NCBI GenBank assembly: GCA_018883125.1
Contig: VEQR01000010.1
Location: forward strand, 1-56,254
Direction of reading: 5' to 3'
DNA from: Candidatus Kapaibacterium sp.
Lineage (GTDB): Bacteria > Bacteroidota > Ignavibacteria > Kapaibacteriales > Kapaibacteriaceae
DNA length: 56,254 nt
Positions 15,276 through 55,994 of the stretch are shown here, piece after piece. The position numbers were made by a program, and so were the translations under genes. Each line of letters opens with the position of its first letter. Within the stretch, counting starts at the first letter, position 1. The notes beneath the pieces are model-generated. The model saw only the letters and a list, made by a program, of their open reading frames with translations, was not told the DNA's origin and made no database searches.

Positions 15276-15320
15276 CAGTCATCAGTCATCAGTCATCAGT
15301 CATCAGTCATCAGTCATCAG
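15276..15320. repeat. Tandem heptamer array (CAGTCAT)
   Basis: About six copies of the 7-mer CAGTCAT (ATGACTG on the minus strand). The last codons and the TGA stop of the minus-strand Fe-S oxidoreductase (15303-15305) lie inside the array, so the protein's C-terminal MTDD is encoded by repeat units. Confidence 0.95.
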
Positions 15321-38413: not shown

Positions 38414-38544
38414 TATGACTGATGACTGATGACTGATGACTGGTGACTGATGACTGATGACTGGTGACTGGTGACTGGTGACTGATGACTGATGACTGGT
38501 GACTGATGACTGATGACTGATGACTGGTGACTGGTGACTGGTGA
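38414..38544. repeat. Tandem heptamer array (ATGACTG/GTGACTG)
   Basis: About 18 heptamers, a mix of ATGACTG and GTGACTG, fill the space between two paralogous lipoprotein genes. Orientation is opposite to the arrays at 15.3 and 49.0 kb. No spacers. Confidence 0.95.
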
Positions 38545-38564
38545 CGTGCTCCTCACGCATTGTG

Positions 38565-48982: not shown

Positions 48983-49117
48983 TCAGTCATCAGTCATCAG
49001 TCATCAGTCATCAGTCATCAGTCATCAGTAATCAGTCATCTGTCATCAGTCATCAGTCATCAGTCATCAGTCATCAGTCATCAGTAATCAGTCATCAGTC
49101 ATCAGCCATCAGTCATC
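48983..49117. repeat. Tandem heptamer array (CAGTCAT)
   Basis: About 19 heptamers CAGTCAT, with single-base variants (CAGTAAT, CTGTCAT, CAGCCAT). The TGA stop of the minus-strand membrane protein (49113-49115) is supplied by the first repeat unit. Confidence 0.95.
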
Positions 49118-49649: not shown

Positions 49650-49717
49650 GTAGGGGCGAGACGCAGTCTCGCCCGCAGGGGTCCCACGTACCCCCGGCGC
49701 AGGCCGGGGCCCATGGG
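49650..49717. repeat. REP-like hairpin elements
   Basis: A GGGCGAGAC-GCA-GTCTCGCCC module (49654-49675) is followed by a variant hairpin with CCCCGGC and GCCGGGG arms (about 49689-49712). The same pair of variants recurs at 55.85 kb. Confidence 0.82.
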
Positions 49718-49737
49718 CCATTAAGGTTCACATTTCA

Positions 49738-49807
49738 AACCCATCACCTACAACCCATCACCTACAACCCAAAACCTAGAACCTAGAACCTAAAACCTGT
49801 AACCTGT
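49738..49807. repeat. Degenerate heptamer array (AGGTTNT on minus)
   Basis: About ten 7-mer units read on minus as AGGTTTT, AGGTTCT, GGGTTGT and AGGTGAT. It begins within 2 bp of the stop of the WYL regulator gene. It is the same word class as the GGGTTTT array at 55.8 kb. Confidence 0.85.
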
Positions 49808-49808
49808 T

Positions 49809-50903
49809 TCACAACATCTCCATCAGCGCTTTGGCACGCTCTCGTACCTTATCCTTGAGGAACTCGGGCTCGACGACGCGGACATGGGGGGCCCAGCGCA
49901 GGACCCAGGAGACGAGCTCAGGAGAAACGCCGCATGTGAAGGTCAGTCGGACGGTCTTGTCGTTGATGACCTTCTTTTGCTGCGTAGGGTGCCAGACACG
50001 ATCAACAAACTCGTTGAGTAGATGGGGCTTGTCATCTTCGGCCAACACATCCACAACGACCTTGTAGGTGCCAGAGGGGTTCTCGTCATTCTTTATTGTC
50101 GACCAGATTCCGAAGCGCGTTTTCATGAACTTCTTTTCGTCGAATTCATGCTGGTGAACCCTGCTCTTGGGGTCCGGACGAATCTCGTGAATCCTATCAA
50201 TTGCAAAAACGAAGTAGTCATTCTTCTTCGCTTCGAACACAATCAGGTAGAGGCGACCCAAGTACATAACGATGGTACATGGAAGCACATGCTGCTGCTT
50301 CCCTACCGATGAGCCGTAACGTATGAAAACCAGCTTCTTCTTCGCAACCGCAGCAAATGACTCAGAGAGAATTCCAGCATTGACCTCACGCTGCCATGTT
50401 CCGGCATGAACGGAATGCATCAGCTTAGCACTTCCTAAGGTCTGAATGTCTCCCTCATTCCTTACAATGTTTGCTATCTGATCCACCATTCCGTCAACGT
50501 CAATCTTCGATGATTGCGGCAAGATGTCCTTCAGCAGCTGTGTTACAAGCTGCGCCCCTTCTTGAATGGACTTCAGCGATAGTACCCGCTCATTTGCCGG
50601 AATCTTATAAACCGGTGTCTTACCGATGCGTTCAACTTCCAGTCCGATACCCGCTTCACCGATGAACTTCAGGTCGCGATTGATCTGCCGCCTATCAATC
50701 TCCGCACTGTGCTTGCTGAACAACTTCGCCATGATTTCATTCACGGAAAGACCTTTAGGAGCATCGTGAAGCATCTTTAGAATCATCACGACACGCACAC
50801 CCTGATTCGGCGCGCCGTTGTCCTTCGTACCTACGGCACGATCTGTTGATGCTGACTGCTTGCCACTCCTCTGTGCTGACTTTGTGCTCTTCTTCCGTGC
50901 CAT
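49809..50903 (-). CDS. WYL-domain transcriptional regulator
   Basis: A 364-residue regulator with a basic, Ser/Lys-rich N-terminal tail (residues 1-35), a winged-helix domain (VVMILKMLHDAPKGLSVNEIMAKLF and RRQINRDLKFI, about 36-100), and a WYL domain (about 185-245: KKLVFIRYGS, VLPCTIVMYLGRLYLIVFEA, AIDRIHEI). It ends in a WCX-like part (VDVLAEDDKPHLLNEFVDRVWHP, SPELVSWVLRWAPHVRVVEP). WYL regulators sense ligands, often nucleic acids or nucleotides, and several control phage-defence operons. A palindrome lies 15 bp upstream of its start, consistent with self-regulation. Confidence 0.87.
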   Translation of the reverse strand: MARKKSTKSAQRSGKQSASTDRAVGTKDNGAPNQGVRVVMILKMLHDAPKGLSVNEIMAKLFSKHSAEIDRRQINRDLKFIGEAGIGLEVERIGKTPVYKIPANERVLSLKSIQEGAQLVTQLLKDILPQSSKIDVDGMVDQIANIVRNEGDIQTLGSAKLMHSVHAGTWQREVNAGILSESFAAVAKKKLVFIRYGSSVGKQQHVLPCTIVMYLGRLYLIVFEAKKNDYFVFAIDRIHEIRPDPKSRVHQHEFDEKKFMKTRFGIWSTIKNDENPSGTYKVVVDVLAEDDKPHLLNEFVDRVWHPTQQKKVINDKTVRLTFTCGVSPELVSWVLRWAPHVRVVEPEFLKDKVRERAKALMEML

Positions 50904-50917
50904 AGTAGCCCCCTTAC

Positions 50918-50934
50918 AAATGGTAATACCGTTT
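50918..50934. promoter_or_regulatory. Palindromic candidate operator of the WYL regulator gene
   Basis: AAATGGTAATACCGTTT is an inverted repeat (AAAnGGTA and TACCnTTT) with 15 of 17 symmetric positions, lying 15-31 bp before the ATG at 50903. Winged-helix WYL dimers bind sites of this kind. Confidence 0.45.
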
Positions 50935-50975
50935 CATGTGAATTCAATTATCGACCCTCACCGGTGAAATATAGC

Positions 50976-51011
50976 GCAAGCCCCCTGACAGTCCACGAAC
51001 AGGGGGCTTGC
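50976..51011 (-). terminator. Hairpin built from inverted AGCCCCCTG words, after the AAA+ gene
   Basis: A perfect 12-bp stem pairs GCAAGCCCCCTG with CAGGGGGCTTGC around a 12-nt loop. It lies 40 bp beyond the stop of the AAA+ ATPase gene. The U-tract is poor on minus (GCGCTATATTT). Each arm carries the over-represented genome word. Confidence 0.7.
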
Positions 51012-51050
51012 ACGGATACACAACCATCCAACAATCAGCGGATTCACATA

Positions 51051-52550
51051 CTACACGAAGCCGAATCCCTTTGATGAGCTGTTGCGCTCGCCAAGACTGC
51101 GGTCAAAGGACGAAAGCTGCTGGCGGATGGAAACAATGAGCTCTTCCGTTGTGAGTATGGCATTGTCACCATCGCGGATGAGCAAGCGCTCCACTGTTTC
51201 ATCTACACACTTCACAATCAGAGCTCCCGTTAGGGAAGCCACTTCAAGCAAGGCATCAACATTGATGGCATCTGCCCCATTCATGGAGATGTTGAGATAG
51301 TGGCGCCACATTTGGGCCTGACTGTTCTTCGATGGATAGTCGAGCAGGATGCTGCTGCGCACACGGCGCGCGAAGGCCTCATCAATCGCGTCAATCGAAT
51401 TGGTGGTCATGATGAGCGTGCCCTTGAAGGCGGCGATCTCCTGTAGGGCAATGTTGACAACATTGGTCATTGCACGGTCTGCGCCGCCCTGTTCGCTCGT
51501 CGTGCGACGTCGCATCAACGAGTCGCACTCATCCATGAGCATTACTGGATAGGTGCCAAGTGCTTTGGCCACCTGGCGGTATTCGTCAAATGCAGCGCGC
51601 ATGTTTCGCTCTGCAGCTCCGAAATAGGGGCTGAGGATGTTGTCAACGTTCAACGTGTAGAGCGGAACGTTCAGTTCACCAGCAATGGCGAAGGCAGCAG
51701 ACGTCTTGCCAGTGCCCGGCGGACCATATAGCAGGATGACATTACGTTGGTCGCTCTTGCCTGTAGCTTCTGACTTGACGGGGCCTCGGTGAATGCCCAT
51801 CCGGCGCATCGTCTCGCGGACAGTTTCGCCGTCGGCATGCGCGGCCCGATGGATCTGCTCGGCGATCTCTGGCTCAAGGAAATGATCCTTCAGTGTGATT
51901 TCACTTTCCACTTTGGTCAGCAAACGAAGTTTCGGTTCTGCTGACGTCTCTTCTGCAACGCCGAAGACCCGCAACGGTACGTTGCCTTCATTCATGGTAT
52001 CCTCGGCAGGAAGGTACTCCTGATCACGCTGGGCAATGTGATCGATGAATGGTGCAGAGAGCACAACGCGTCGGTTCAAGAAAGGAGTATTCTCCACATC
52101 CTCTTTCGCGCCAAAGAATCCTTCGCTGGCATGGTATTGGAGAACGCCACGCTTGAGCATTGCCTCCATCGTACGGATCTTGGTGAAGGCTGCTTCCTGT
52201 CCGTACACTGTGTGCAGAAGTTCGCAGATGGTATTTACGCCCCGGTCACGGCGTCGGGATGTTGGGAATGTTGCTTCAATCCAGAGCATGCCGATAATTC
52301 GGAGCTCCTCCTTCGCCGTGACGACGTCGTTGAAAAGCGCAAGGAGCTGCATTTCATCAGCAGATTCCGGGTCTCCACGGCGCCACTCGGGCGTTTCTAT
52401 GCCTGTATATCGCCCAGTGGGCTTGTACAGAGACAATCCATACTTGGTCAGCAGTGCGGAAGGGGGCATGGCAGCGGTGCTGGCGCACACTCCAACTTCC
52501 CCACTCTTCATCATTTCCTTCTCTTCTCTCATCTTTTTCTTCTTTCCCAT
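51051..52550 (-). CDS. AAA+ ATPase with winged-helix-like N-terminal domain
   Basis: A 499-residue protein. Residues 65-175 form a helical domain of unknown role (LLALFNDVVTAKEELRIIGMLW, LKRGVLQYHASEGFFGAKED). The AAA core has Walker A GPPGTGKT (276-283), Walker B VMLMDECDSL (336-345), sensor-1 TLIMTTNSIDAID and an arginine-finger-type FARRVRSSILLDYP. The lid domain follows. The start is lysine-rich (GKKKKMREEKEMMK), with AAGGAGGAG before the ATG. Its promoter (TAGATTTG at 52598-52605) has the same upstream element as the GIY-YIG gene. No protease or nuclease domain is fused, so the ATPase likely remodels a partner. Confidence 0.87.
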   Translation of the reverse strand: MGKKKKMREEKEMMKSGEVGVCASTAAMPPSALLTKYGLSLYKPTGRYTGIETPEWRRGDPESADEMQLLALFNDVVTAKEELRIIGMLWIEATFPTSRRRDRGVNTICELLHTVYGQEAAFTKIRTMEAMLKRGVLQYHASEGFFGAKEDVENTPFLNRRVVLSAPFIDHIAQRDQEYLPAEDTMNEGNVPLRVFGVAEETSAEPKLRLLTKVESEITLKDHFLEPEIAEQIHRAAHADGETVRETMRRMGIHRGPVKSEATGKSDQRNVILLYGPPGTGKTSAAFAIAGELNVPLYTLNVDNILSPYFGAAERNMRAAFDEYRQVAKALGTYPVMLMDECDSLMRRRTTSEQGGADRAMTNVVNIALQEIAAFKGTLIMTTNSIDAIDEAFARRVRSSILLDYPSKNSQAQMWRHYLNISMNGADAINVDALLEVASLTGALIVKCVDETVERLLIRDGDNAILTTEELIVSIRQQLSSFDRSLGERNSSSKGFGFV

Positions 52551-52597
52551 TACTCACTCCTCCTTCCCAAATGAATCATGAAACAACAGATAGTCCA

Positions 52598-52635
52598 CAA
52601 ATCTACTATTGTCGTGCGACGCTATTTGTCGTTTT
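52598..52635 (-). promoter_or_regulatory. Promoter of the AAA+ gene with conserved upstream element
   Basis: The -7 box TAGATTTG (52598-52605) fits TAnnTTTG. Nine bases upstream begins a 21-bp element (52615-52635), shown here on plus as CGACGCTATTTGTCGTTTT preceded by TG. It has CGAC/GTCG half-sites and would overlap the -33 region. The same element at the same spacing lies before the GIY-YIG gene. Confidence 0.65.
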
Positions 52636-52664
52636 GATATTCTCGACATTTCTTTGTTTACCGA

Positions 52665-55163
52665 TTAGCGTCCGGTGGAAACAGTGCCGCCAATGATCGG
52701 AGCAAGTGCCTTGGACAGATTGTACAAGCGCGCCCCATCGCCGTAGATGGCCTCAGCAAGTACGGAACGCGGGTGTGCCAGCAGGTCCGCCGGGAGCTTG
52801 TCGAGTTGGGCGTCAAGGCAAACGTGGTCGGAGCAGAGATCTGCATTACGCAGATTCATCATTTCCGGAACGAGCGATGAGACGTTCTGGACGAGCAGAT
52901 GCTGTGAGAGGGGCAGATGCATCGTGACATCGGGTTGAACACGAGCATCGCTCCCGACGTGGAATCGTGACCAGATGTATCCGATGCTGATCTGTGGAGA
53001 GATCTCCAACATGCGGCGCTGAGCCAACTCACCGGCTGTTGTCTGTCCAATGATCATCGAGTTACCCCGACGTTTGATCGAGGCTGCAAAGACCTCGGCA
53101 GCGCCCTTCGTTGCGCTGTCAACCACCACATACACTGCCCACTCACGATAGTCGCCATGGCGCGTGATGATTGCGTGGTCTGTTGCCCCATCGTTAAATC
53201 GCGCAACTGCCATCGTATCACCCATGCGATGGAAGGTTGCCAAGAGAGTTAACATTCGGGTGAAATCACCCACCTGTGAACCTCGGAGATCGAACACCAC
53301 CGTGCGGACACCGCGGTCGCGAAATGCGTTGAGCGAGCGCCGCATTTGATAATCGCCGGCATCAGAGGTGCAGAATCGGTCTGTGGCAATGTACCCGACG
53401 CTACCTGCTTGGTAGGTTAGCGGAACCGCCACGATGCGCACGTTCGCGTCACACGTTACCGTAAGCTCACGCTGTCCACGGCGAACTGTAAGAACCACCG
53501 GCTGCCGATCCCGGACGAGTTGGATGATGCGCACCTGGATGTTCTCGAGCTCCTTGTCAAGGGGCTTGCGATTCATCGCAAGAAGCCTGTCCCCGGCACA
53601 TACCCCTGCATAGTAGGCGCTTGAGCGTGGATGGACACGAGCAACGATTATCGCACCAGATACAGTCGTCAGAACCAGCCCAAGGTCACAGGCAACCGGC
53701 CGCCTTGCATCAGCCTCGATCACGTCGGATGCAGGAACAGCAGCTGGTGGTAGCTGCCGCAGGCGCTTCATCATCGAATGAACGGACATGTCGCGAGCAA
53801 ACGATGCATCCATCACCCCTGTATAGCGCTCATGCAGCGCCCGCACAATCTCCGGTTCGTCTGCCCTGGTGTACATGCTGCTCTCGGCGTAGTTCGGCGA
53901 TGGTGTAAATGGTTTTACGATCAGCCGACTGCGCATGGTGTCGATAGCACGGTATGCTTCAAAGGGGCGCACGCGCTGACACCAGATCATGTAGGCCACA
54001 TCTTTGCCGGCCACACGATTAATGCTATCAATGGTTGCCCGTGTCGGATTCGTTACCCGCAGGCGCAATGCGGGAACATCGATCGTTGGCGGAATGCCGA
54101 CGATCGGCGGCAGCGAAAGGTCAGCCAGCATGTGCGGCGTAACACCGATCGAATCCACAGTCATTGTGCCTCCGGCCAGATATCGGGCAACGGTGATCTT
54201 CACTGCCGCTACGACGGAGTCGGCAAAGCTCGTTGCATGCAGCCCCCTGACCAAGCGTTGGATGCGCCCCTTCCCATACGTCGTTGAACCGATCAGCACA
54301 GCATTCGTGCGAACGGATATTCCACCGACGAAGATCTCTCCCGCAGATACTGTTTCGTCGGAAAGCAAAACGTAGGTTGGACGCATGCGTCTCCATCGGC
54401 CGTTCCCATGGCTGTGGATGGCATTGCTGCGCTGACGGTATTGCTCAACGAGGAGGGTATCTCCGTCAGGAATGAACTCCGACATCAGATCCGTGGCTTC
54501 GGACACAACGCCCCCTCCATTATCCCGGAGGTCAAGAATGATCGTGTCGATATCTTCATCTTGGATGTGTCTGGTAAGCTCTACGAATCGGTCATACGTG
54601 CCGCTATTAAATCCCAACACAACAACACACATCGTCCGGTTGATAACCGACACATAAACCGTCTGAGTCGGAAACGCCGCAAATGGCATCGGCTGCTGAA
54701 AGCAGGTGTCGCCGCGCCTCACGTCAAGCATGACCCATGTGCCCGGCTCACCCGATGCGCTGACGTAGCGACCGTATTCGTTCGGCCAGACTGTGGAGAT
54801 GCCATCGACGCTTGTGACCACATCGCCCGGCAGAAGCCCCATGTCATAAGCGGGACTATTTGGCGTGATGTCTTTGATCACCCAGCCACGACGTCTCCAG
54901 TCATAATCGAAGCCAAGCTCACCATCGGCACCACCACTGAAGCGCTGATCCCAGTTTCGGACTTGCTCCGGTGAGAAGATGTAGGTGTAGGGATCGAGAT
55001 ACTTCGCGAACTCATCCCACGGTAGGGTTTCGATGCCCTTGGGAAGGGGCGTCACATAGTTCTCGACGATGTACTTCTTGGCGGCCAGCGTATCGGCGCT
55101 GGTGCGGGGTGAACCGCACAAACAACAGAAAGCAATGAACGATGCAGCAATGGCGTGACGCAT
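52665..55163 (-). CDS. Exported S41-type peptidase with duplicated PDZ-protease halves
   Basis: An 832-residue protein with signal peptide RHAIAASFIAFCCLCGSPR. The first half is a C-terminal-processing-protease unit: helical cap (WDEFAKYLDPYTYIF), PDZ (AYDMGLLPGDVVTSVDG), DLRDNGGGVVSEA, the serine in ETVSAGEIFVGG and the lysine in TTYGKGRIQ. The second half repeats PDZ (YAGVCAGDRLLAMN) and protease fold (VVVDSATKGAAEVFAASIKRRG, QTTAGELAQ), but Ser and Lys are replaced by Gly and Glu. Only the first site should cleave. GGAGG precedes the ATG by 6 nt. Confidence 0.85.
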   Translation of the reverse strand: MRHAIAASFIAFCCLCGSPRTSADTLAAKKYIVENYVTPLPKGIETLPWDEFAKYLDPYTYIFSPEQVRNWDQRFSGGADGELGFDYDWRRRGWVIKDITPNSPAYDMGLLPGDVVTSVDGISTVWPNEYGRYVSASGEPGTWVMLDVRRGDTCFQQPMPFAAFPTQTVYVSVINRTMCVVVLGFNSGTYDRFVELTRHIQDEDIDTIILDLRDNGGGVVSEATDLMSEFIPDGDTLLVEQYRQRSNAIHSHGNGRWRRMRPTYVLLSDETVSAGEIFVGGISVRTNAVLIGSTTYGKGRIQRLVRGLHATSFADSVVAAVKITVARYLAGGTMTVDSIGVTPHMLADLSLPPIVGIPPTIDVPALRLRVTNPTRATIDSINRVAGKDVAYMIWCQRVRPFEAYRAIDTMRSRLIVKPFTPSPNYAESSMYTRADEPEIVRALHERYTGVMDASFARDMSVHSMMKRLRQLPPAAVPASDVIEADARRPVACDLGLVLTTVSGAIIVARVHPRSSAYYAGVCAGDRLLAMNRKPLDKELENIQVRIIQLVRDRQPVVLTVRRGQRELTVTCDANVRIVAVPLTYQAGSVGYIATDRFCTSDAGDYQMRRSLNAFRDRGVRTVVFDLRGSQVGDFTRMLTLLATFHRMGDTMAVARFNDGATDHAIITRHGDYREWAVYVVVDSATKGAAEVFAASIKRRGNSMIIGQTTAGELAQRRMLEISPQISIGYIWSRFHVGSDARVQPDVTMHLPLSQHLLVQNVSSLVPEMMNLRNADLCSDHVCLDAQLDKLPADLLAHPRSVLAEAIYGDGARLYNLSKALAPIIGGTVSTGR

Positions 55164-55272
55164 GATGTCCTCCCATGACGATGTGTTACGGATCCATCTG
55201 TACTGCGTCAGCTATGCTTCATGTCACCCCTGAGTATGTTCATTAATCCCCTGCAAGCCCCGTGCCGATTCT

Positions 55273-55725
55273 TCAGTCAAACTCGGGTGGCGAATCAACC
55301 GGCGGGTTCACATTCCAAAGTGGGTCGAGCCGCTCAATGAGTGCCGGCTCGATACCATAGACATTTACATACCGATTCGGATCATTCTGAGCCGCCGGGA
55401 TGTAGCACCGCAGTTCGTCCTCGCTTGCGGCATAGACATGAACGGTGCGATCATCGGCCAGAGCCGCTGCCAAACGGTCCCGCTTGTGATGATAGACCGT
55501 GCGCTTGCGATCATAGATCCAGTGCTTGGCAAACGTTTGCGTGAACTTCCCAACGTAATAGATAACGTCATCGACCGCGATCAGGTACACACCACGGTCA
55601 AGCGTCGAAAGGTCCCCGTGCTCCACGTACCGTACAACTTGATGCGTCGACGAAGCACCACGCAGAAGTGTGGGCGTCAGCACGTGACGAAAGAGCAGCC
55701 CTTCTACAAGCATTCCTTCTCTCAT
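55273..55725 (-). CDS. GIY-YIG-type nuclease domain protein
   Basis: A 150-residue protein. DRGVYLIAVDDVIYYVGKFTQ (residues about 43-64) is a GIY-YIG motif variant (GVY...YYVGK). It is followed by basic residues KHWIYDRKRTVYHHKRDRL and, near the end, EPALIERLDPLWN, which matches the family's C-terminal Glu plus P-x-W-N pattern seen in Eco29kI-like restriction enzymes and other GIY-YIG nucleases. The call rests on these motifs only. GGAGG lies 7 nt before the ATG at 55725. It shares a promoter element with the AAA+ ATPase gene. Confidence 0.7.
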   Translation of the reverse strand: MREGMLVEGLLFRHVLTPTLLRGASSTHQVVRYVEHGDLSTLDRGVYLIAVDDVIYYVGKFTQTFAKHWIYDRKRTVYHHKRDRLAAALADDRTVHVYAASEDELRCYIPAAQNDPNRYVNVYGIEPALIERLDPLWNVNPPVDSPPEFD

Positions 55726-55750
55726 ACCAAACCTCCATACGAATACTCAT

Positions 55751-55788
55751 GCAATATACATTCATCATGCGACGCTATGTGTCGTTTT
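55751..55788 (-). promoter_or_regulatory. Promoter of the GIY-YIG gene with conserved upstream element
   Basis: The -7-like box TATATTGC (55751-55758) is followed after 9 bases by the 21-bp element at 55768-55788 (CGACGCTATGTGTCGTTTT on plus, preceded by TG). It is identical to the one before the AAA+ gene except for one base. Confidence 0.6.
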
Positions 55789-55789
55789 A

Positions 55790-55828
55790 GGTTTTGGGTT
55801 TTGGGTTTTGGGTTTTGGGTTTTGGGTT
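55790..55828. repeat. Tandem heptamer array (GGGTTTT)
   Basis: Five to six copies of GGGTTTT on plus, telomere-like in composition but internal. It adjoins the promoter element of the GIY-YIG gene at its left end. Confidence 0.95.
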
Positions 55829-55844
55829 ACTGATAACTCGTCTC

Positions 55845-55994
55845 TCGCACCCCCAGCGCAGGCCGGGGCCCATCTCCGTCATCCCCACGAAAGCGGGGAT
55901 CCATGCGTTCAATCGTCATCCCCGCGAAAGCGGGGATCCATGCGGTCATTCTATTGCTACCCCATGGATCCCGGCCTTCGCCGGGATGACGGCC
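55845..55994. repeat. Cluster of REP-like hairpin elements
   Basis: Four hairpins in a row: a CCCCAGC/GGCCGGGG variant, two ATCCCC(A/G)CGAAAGCGGGGAT copies, and an ATCCCGGC/GCCGGGAT copy. The cluster ends directly at the stop codon (55995-55997) of the partial gene at the right edge. Confidence 0.88.

Follow-up and report, generated by a model that had tools for sequence, protein, structure and literature searches.

Gene content and flanking repeats of the locus

The analysed window is a stretch of 56,254 nt corresponding to contig 107 (C107; VEQR01000010.1) of a Candidatus Kapaibacterium sp. genome of 2.90 Mb in 199 contigs (GCA_018883125.1). On its minus strand lie a gene for a WYL-WCX regulator (nt 49809–50903), with Pfam matches to both the WYL and the WCX domain, and genes for an AAA+ ATPase (nt 51051–52550), an 832-aa S41/PDZ protease with a signal-peptide-like N-terminus (nt 52665–55163) and a 150-aa GIY-YIG-like protein (nt 55273–55725). 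The AAA+ label assigned by the first-pass annotation was corroborated by PF00004 (E = 2e-25). Its ATPase domain is IetA-like, with PADLOC IetA at E = 2e-31 and NCBIfam IteA at E = 9e-28, the latter scoring 97 and thus far below the cutoff of 510, and the N-terminal part of about 260 residues has no assigned family. By contrast, the nuclease label given to the 150-aa protein was not corroborated, no significant GIY-YIG domain profile being found for nt 55273–55725 in Pfam or NCBIfam; the resemblance is by eye. An IetAS system, composed of the IetA AAA+ and the IetS subtilase, was rejected, as the resemblance to IetA is confined to the ATPase domain and the protease encoded next to it belongs to S41, not to the subtilases; an IetAS-like pairing of the AAA+ with the S41 protein was also considered and dropped. 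By eye, the protease consists of two S41/PDZ halves, the first retaining the VSAGE serine and the TYGKG lysine and the second (TKGAAE) seeming to be without the serine.

Comparison with relatives showed that the WYL-AAA+-S41-GIY cassette is accessory. The block is flanked by inverted 7-nt minisatellites (nt 49738–49805 and 55784–55828, about 80% complementary) and is bracketed also by a direct repeat (nt 49681–49714 and 55840–55873), which gives a cassette-like span of nt 49681–55873. Being the cassette accessory and enclosed by inverted minisatellites, the operators described below may have arrived with it. Because the AAA+ and GIY-YIG-like genes are accessory, no footprint of the elements could be obtained through their orthologues.

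Two matching elements and their copies in the genome

Direct reading of the sequence confirmed that two 21-mers, TGCGACGCTATTTGTCGTTTT at nt 52615–52635 and TGCGACGCTATGTGTCGTTTT at nt 55768–55788, are identical at 20 of 21 positions, and that in both cases 9 bases on the minus strand separate the 21-mer from a further box (TAGATTTG and TATATTGC, respectively); the genes lie downstream of both elements on this strand. The 21-bp unit originally proposed is real as an element, but its conserved part is limited to 17 bp. Operator 1, ACGACAAATAGCGTCGC (nt 52616–52632, minus strand), is found upstream of the AAA+ ATPase gene, its predicted target, and is followed 10 nt downstream by the -7 box TAGATTTG (nt 52598–52605, minus strand), a perfect TAnnTTTG. 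Operator 2, ACGACACATAGCGTCGC (nt 55769–55785, minus strand), is located upstream of the GIY-YIG-like gene, predicted to be its target with the S41/PDZ protease as the probable second gene of the unit, and the -7 box TATATTGC (nt 55751–55758, minus strand) follows at 10 nt; in this genome, the -7 box of W2 matches only in part. A search for E. coli-type sigma-70 promoters at both sites gave nothing above shuffles.

At up to three mismatches, no third copy of the 21-mer was found in the window, where shuffles predict 0.01 and no shuffle contained two. Genome-wide, the same threshold retrieved four copies, namely the two in the window plus C112:8734 and C85:3033, against none for the reversed pattern. 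The first-pass annotation had stated that dozens of copies unrelated to promoters would speak for a dispersed repeat; as the scan brought up only two copies besides those of the window, and the reversed pattern brought up none, the 21-mers are not such a repeat. The core ACGACANAYAGCGTCG occurs exactly four times (twice on C107, once each on C112 and C56), with no genome-wide occurrence at one mismatch and a count equal to the control at two. The core sites are therefore a very small and sharply bounded set. On the plus strand the element can be folded into a stem of 6–7 bp followed by TTTT, which would suit an intrinsic terminator. The chance that it is a terminator or a dispersed repeat is nevertheless close to nil: stem plus TTTT was seen in this genome only, the TTTT tail showing no conservation elsewhere in the alignment of sites, copies are very few, and the flanks of the sites fail to align, in agreement with the non-conserved flanks reported at first.

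The composite of operator and -7 box was detected at five sites in total in this genome and at none in the controls. Two types of site can be distinguished, an AGC type with a 10-nt spacing (C107 twice, C112 and C56) and a core type with a 9-nt spacing (C85 and C147). On C112, ACGACAAATAGCGTCGA is followed after 10 nt by TAGTTTCG and then by the gene of an 849-aa S41/PDZ protease sharing 30% identity with the S41 protease of the window. On C85, ACGACATATTACGTCGC, 9 nt and TAGCGTTG precede the gene of a 219-aa protein, HEPN-like by eye only and with no assigned family, on which the gene of a second WYL-WCX regulator converges. On C56, ACGACACACAGCGTCGC, 10 nt and TATCGTTG precede the gene of a 649-aa protein without family. 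By their arrangement, the remaining copies in this genome are read as promoters too.

Conservation and promoter geometry in the family

The family was sampled with 23 Kapabacteria-type genomes, whose members are named Candidatus Kapaibacterium or Ignavibacteria MAGs in public records. Conservation covers a 17-bp operator, RCGAC-N7-GTCGY, for which the family consensus is RCGACAnnATACGTCGY; the arms, which contain the CGAC/GTCG half-sites noticed at the outset, are nearly invariant in 32 aligned sites and form a near-palindrome. Since a relaxed operator-only scan of the relatives stayed at background level, scans were performed with the composite, i.e., the operator plus the -7 box at fixed distance, and on WYL neighbourhoods. 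Composite matches amounted to 28 versus 0 in the control in 22 family genomes, and to 19 versus 22 in the control when 369 genomes from elsewhere in the class were scanned, indicating that the operator/box module is family-specific. In genome G004, of the same genus, three composite sites were found, two of them separated by 2.9 kb, and in G015, of another genus, a perfect composite falls among clustered genes for AAA+, WYL, AAA+, nuclease-like and S41 proteins. Exact operators in the family were 12, where a calculation assuming equal base frequencies gives about 0.4; 8 of these 12 adjoin a WYL gene and one (G021) falls inside a gene. Two genomes with no WYL match, G007 and G010, still have weak matches, that of G007 being a weak composite. 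When about 85,000 species genomes were scanned for the exact pattern, four matches fell in Kapabacteria/Ignavibacteria and four were scattered, near chance.

In the 32 aligned sites, the strongly conserved columns are those of the operator and of A..TTTG at offsets 27 and 30–33 from the operator start, with hardly any position conserved outside operator and box. As several of these sites had been found with the box, the unbiased spacing test relied on the 12 exact operators, chosen blind to it: at least four of the five letters of xAnnTTTG were present at offset 9 in 9 of the 12, while any other offset had a box in at most 1/12 downstream and 2/12 upstream. The nominal binomial value of 3e-15 for the box at offset 9 is too optimistic, some genomes being closely related. 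The spacing from operator to box is mostly 9 nt in the family and 10 nt at the AGC-type sites of this genome, and this distance to the -7 box would place the operator over the -33 region, as had been suggested; a conserved -33 box is absent at the aligned operator sites.

Fixed spacing to a -7 box together with absence of the usual -33 box would also be expected if the whole element were a promoter motif with an unusual -35 box, read by an alternative sigma factor, and no operator at all. This is quite improbable given the near-palindrome with its invariant CGAC/GTCG arms, the recurrence of the operator at WYL promoters, its identity with the half-site arrangement of the WYL activator DriD (see below) and a -7 box that resembles the housekeeping Bacteroidota box.

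WYL regulators, predicted targets and proposed mechanism

Exactly three WYL genes of the DriD-like kind are present in this genome, one in the window (C107) and one each on C85 and C147. Matches to the window WYL protein were sought across the family, and the surroundings of each were scored with a matrix derived from the nine known sites. An operator was found directly before WYL genes, often 20–80 bp upstream of the gene, in nine genomes (G000, on C147, G006, G009, G014, G016, G018, G019, G022 and G011) and at a distance of up to about 2 kb from a WYL gene in G001, G013 and G017; about half of the WYL genes of the family (e.g., in G002, the G004 core, G005 and G008) have no operator close upstream. 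At the core WYL genes, the box is on the side facing away from WYL; the WYL gene of the window has no operator of its own. Because of this, and because a 12-bp perfect inverted repeat, GCAAGCCCCCTG/CAGGGGGCTTGC (nt 50976–51011), read directly from the sequence as a possible terminator, separates it from the AAA+ gene, the window WYL gene may be constitutive. Constitutive expression has been reported for PafBC (PMC10693628).

A regulator of another kind could also be considered, either the NarL-type response regulator encoded divergently from the core WYL in four genomes or LexA. Indeed, a response regulator gene adjoins the operator in G000 (core), G001, G006 and G009, and NarL-family proteins bind palindromes. 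The operator is, however, equally conserved at WYL loci of other genera that have a lipoprotein, Cas9 or HIRAN gene alongside, WYL being the common factor, which makes ownership by such a regulator highly improbable.

A profile of 15 WYL proteins of the family matched DriD (8tp8/9pfq) over the full length, positions 5 to 317, with E = 1e-20. The AlphaFold model of the window WYL protein is of modest confidence (pLDDT 73, pTM 0.54); its seven best PDB fold matches, and hence the nearest solved structures, are all DriD (fold match E = 2e-16), with PafBC, CapW and BrxR ranking behind. The WYL motif RRQIxRDL is conserved and aligns in sequence with the DriD recognition helix VGRRTAERM. By profile comparison, the WYL proteins are homologous to DriD along their length, comprising the HTH, WYL and WCX domains.

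In Caulobacter crescentus, DriD is a ssDNA-triggered WYL activator of an SOS-independent DNA damage response, which binds ATACGAC-N7-GTCGTAT over the -35 at a constant distance to the -10 and switches on an operon transcribed divergently from driD (PMC12340889). In the driD promoter as published, a gap of 9 nt from the 17-mer to the -10 (GG-ACAATC) would fit, although 5 nt scores equally. The Kapabacteria sites share with the DriD regulon the CGAC-N7-GTCG operator, its position over -35/-33 at a constant distance to -10/-7, a promoter divergent from the regulator (at the core WYL genes), scattered targets and full-length homology of the WYL proteins. They differ in the phylum (Bacteroidota/Kapabacteria), in the TAnnTTTG -7 box, in an operator centre of AnnATAC or AnAYAGC, in the presence of several WYL paralogues in one genome and in their predicted targets, where Cas9, GmrSD, a methylase, AAA+, proteases and lipoproteins stand in place of didA, bapE, recJ and dnaG. 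Mycobacterial PafBC, which works by sigma adaptation (PMC11804915), is likewise a ssDNA-triggered WYL activator replacing the -35 contact, with a promoter-specific motif upstream of the -10, but it acts as a heterodimer, one HTH of which contacts a -26 motif, whereas the palindromic Kapabacteria site suits a homodimer. In Mycobacterium smegmatis, SiwR (PMC10693628) is a WYL homodimer activator with a 19-bp imperfect palindrome at the -35/-10 of adjacent genes; it differs in having a single adjacent operon and other targets.

The same operators might alternatively serve a WYL repressor of BrxR/CapW type, whose binding over -33 would block the polymerase until ligand release. WYL repressors of defence islands, such as BrxR, do bind promoter-near inverted repeats, and the operator often lies very near the WYL start, where autorepression would be possible; in addition, BrxR and CapW share with our sites the association of a WYL regulator with defence genes (PMC9122601). 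Those are, however, local repressors with longer inverted repeats (for BrxR, 11-bp repeats with a 5-bp spacer, a grammar different from that of our operator), whereas the Kapabacteria sites are scattered. Furthermore, a spacing of 9–10 nt fixed across genera, with no conserved -33 box, is what an activator needs, while a repressor tolerates any overlap, and in structure the WYL proteins come closest to the activator DriD and then to PafBC, with BrxR and CapW behind. Repression thus appears unlikely.

The reading we favour, with a probability of about 0.78, is a DriD-type operator/promoter module at which a WYL activator would act in place of the -33 contact. At the sequence level it is supported by the rarity of the operator, its palindrome, the fixed spacing, the promoter position, the recurrence next to WYL genes and ahead of orthologous targets of other genera and the homology of the WYL proteins with DriD; the proposal of the first-pass annotation, which took the element for an operator or activator site shared in the control of two genes, is in line with it. 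We infer binding at these promoters, and activation rather than repression. A homodimeric DriD-like WYL regulator would bind RCGAC-N7-GTCGY, situated where a -33 box would otherwise be, and would hold RNA polymerase at a promoter whose other recognisable element is only xAnnTTTG, 9–10 bp downstream. On the model of DriD and PafBC, a ligand of the WYL domain would free the regulator, which could then bind and activate its target promoters; that this ligand is ssDNA, arising from damage, replication stress or phage attack, is suggested by analogy only. We infer in the same way which WYL protein pairs with which site. The window WYL protein, which the first-pass annotation had named as the regulator to be tested, is a plausible candidate for the two operators, and the simplest assignment, by which it serves the AGC-type sites, is favoured somewhat over others. 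In this genome, the jointly induced set would comprise the IetA-like AAA+, the GIY-YIG-like/S41 pair, the C112 S41 protease, the C56 649-aa protein and, from a core-type site, the C85 219-aa protein.

Predicted targets recur across genomes or genera. They include lipoprotein-family genes (G001, G013, G017 and G018, with related ones in G004 and G022), GmrSD (G002, G003 and G008), Cas9, divergent from WYL in G014 and behind WYL in G011, and a 67-aa protein after the operator in G003 and G015. A response regulator gene is found downstream in G000 (core), G001, G006 and G009, a DNA methylase gene in G001 and a HIRAN gene in G019; in G004, the downstream genes encode DUF6577, a lipoprotein/DUF4041-T5orf172/HNH/Schlafen-helicase run and a VWA protein. 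Many of these genes are of defence type; for the lipoproteins and the secreted S41 proteases, no role in damage response or defence is obvious. The 67-aa protein is basic and carries a RGWGWLTNPKK motif (L042 8470–8673; L155 548–781), standing behind the operator in two genera. Cas9 genes at L102:10572–13748 and L106:10575–13739 adjoin WYL genes with operator promoters and are candidates for a WYL-controlled type II CRISPR system.

A wider and tentative reading is that in Kapabacteria a DriD-like, ssDNA-sensing WYL might be a genome-wide immune switch, with a single 17-bp operator, its promoter geometry fixed, placed before unrelated and horizontally acquired defence genes (Cas9, modification-dependent GmrSD, restriction-type methylase, IetA-like AAA+ and nuclease operons) and paralogous WYL proteins running sub-regulons through slightly different operators. 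Known WYL defence regulators mostly repress their own locus, and DriD and PafBC activate DNA-repair regulons; a DriD-type operator that recurs ahead of Cas9, GmrSD, methylase, AAA+ and nuclease genes would tie ssDNA sensing to the co-induction of scattered immune genes. Under the DriD-type reading, the 17-mer, 9–10 nt and the -7 box also supply a readable code for predicting uncharacterised members of the response, and the DriD promoter grammar is extended to Bacteroidota-type promoters.

Outside the family, in genus g28 of the same order, ACGACTCAATARGTCGT and a -7 box were found in the interval separating an LCP-type from a polyphosphate-kinase-like gene. This palindrome, similar to the operator, was seen at L194 (nt 1501–1517), L195 and L196, and is probably for a different regulator, as no WYL gene is nearby. 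Other repeats were also observed in the window, namely CATCAGT/ATGACTG 7-nt minisatellites between genes (nt 48983–49117, 15276–15320 and 38415–38545) and several copies of palindromic intergenic repeats, CGTCATCCCCGCGAAAGCGGGGATCC (including nt 1723–1843 and 55877–55992), which resemble a dispersed small repeat family and are also translated as spurious ORFs on contig C112.
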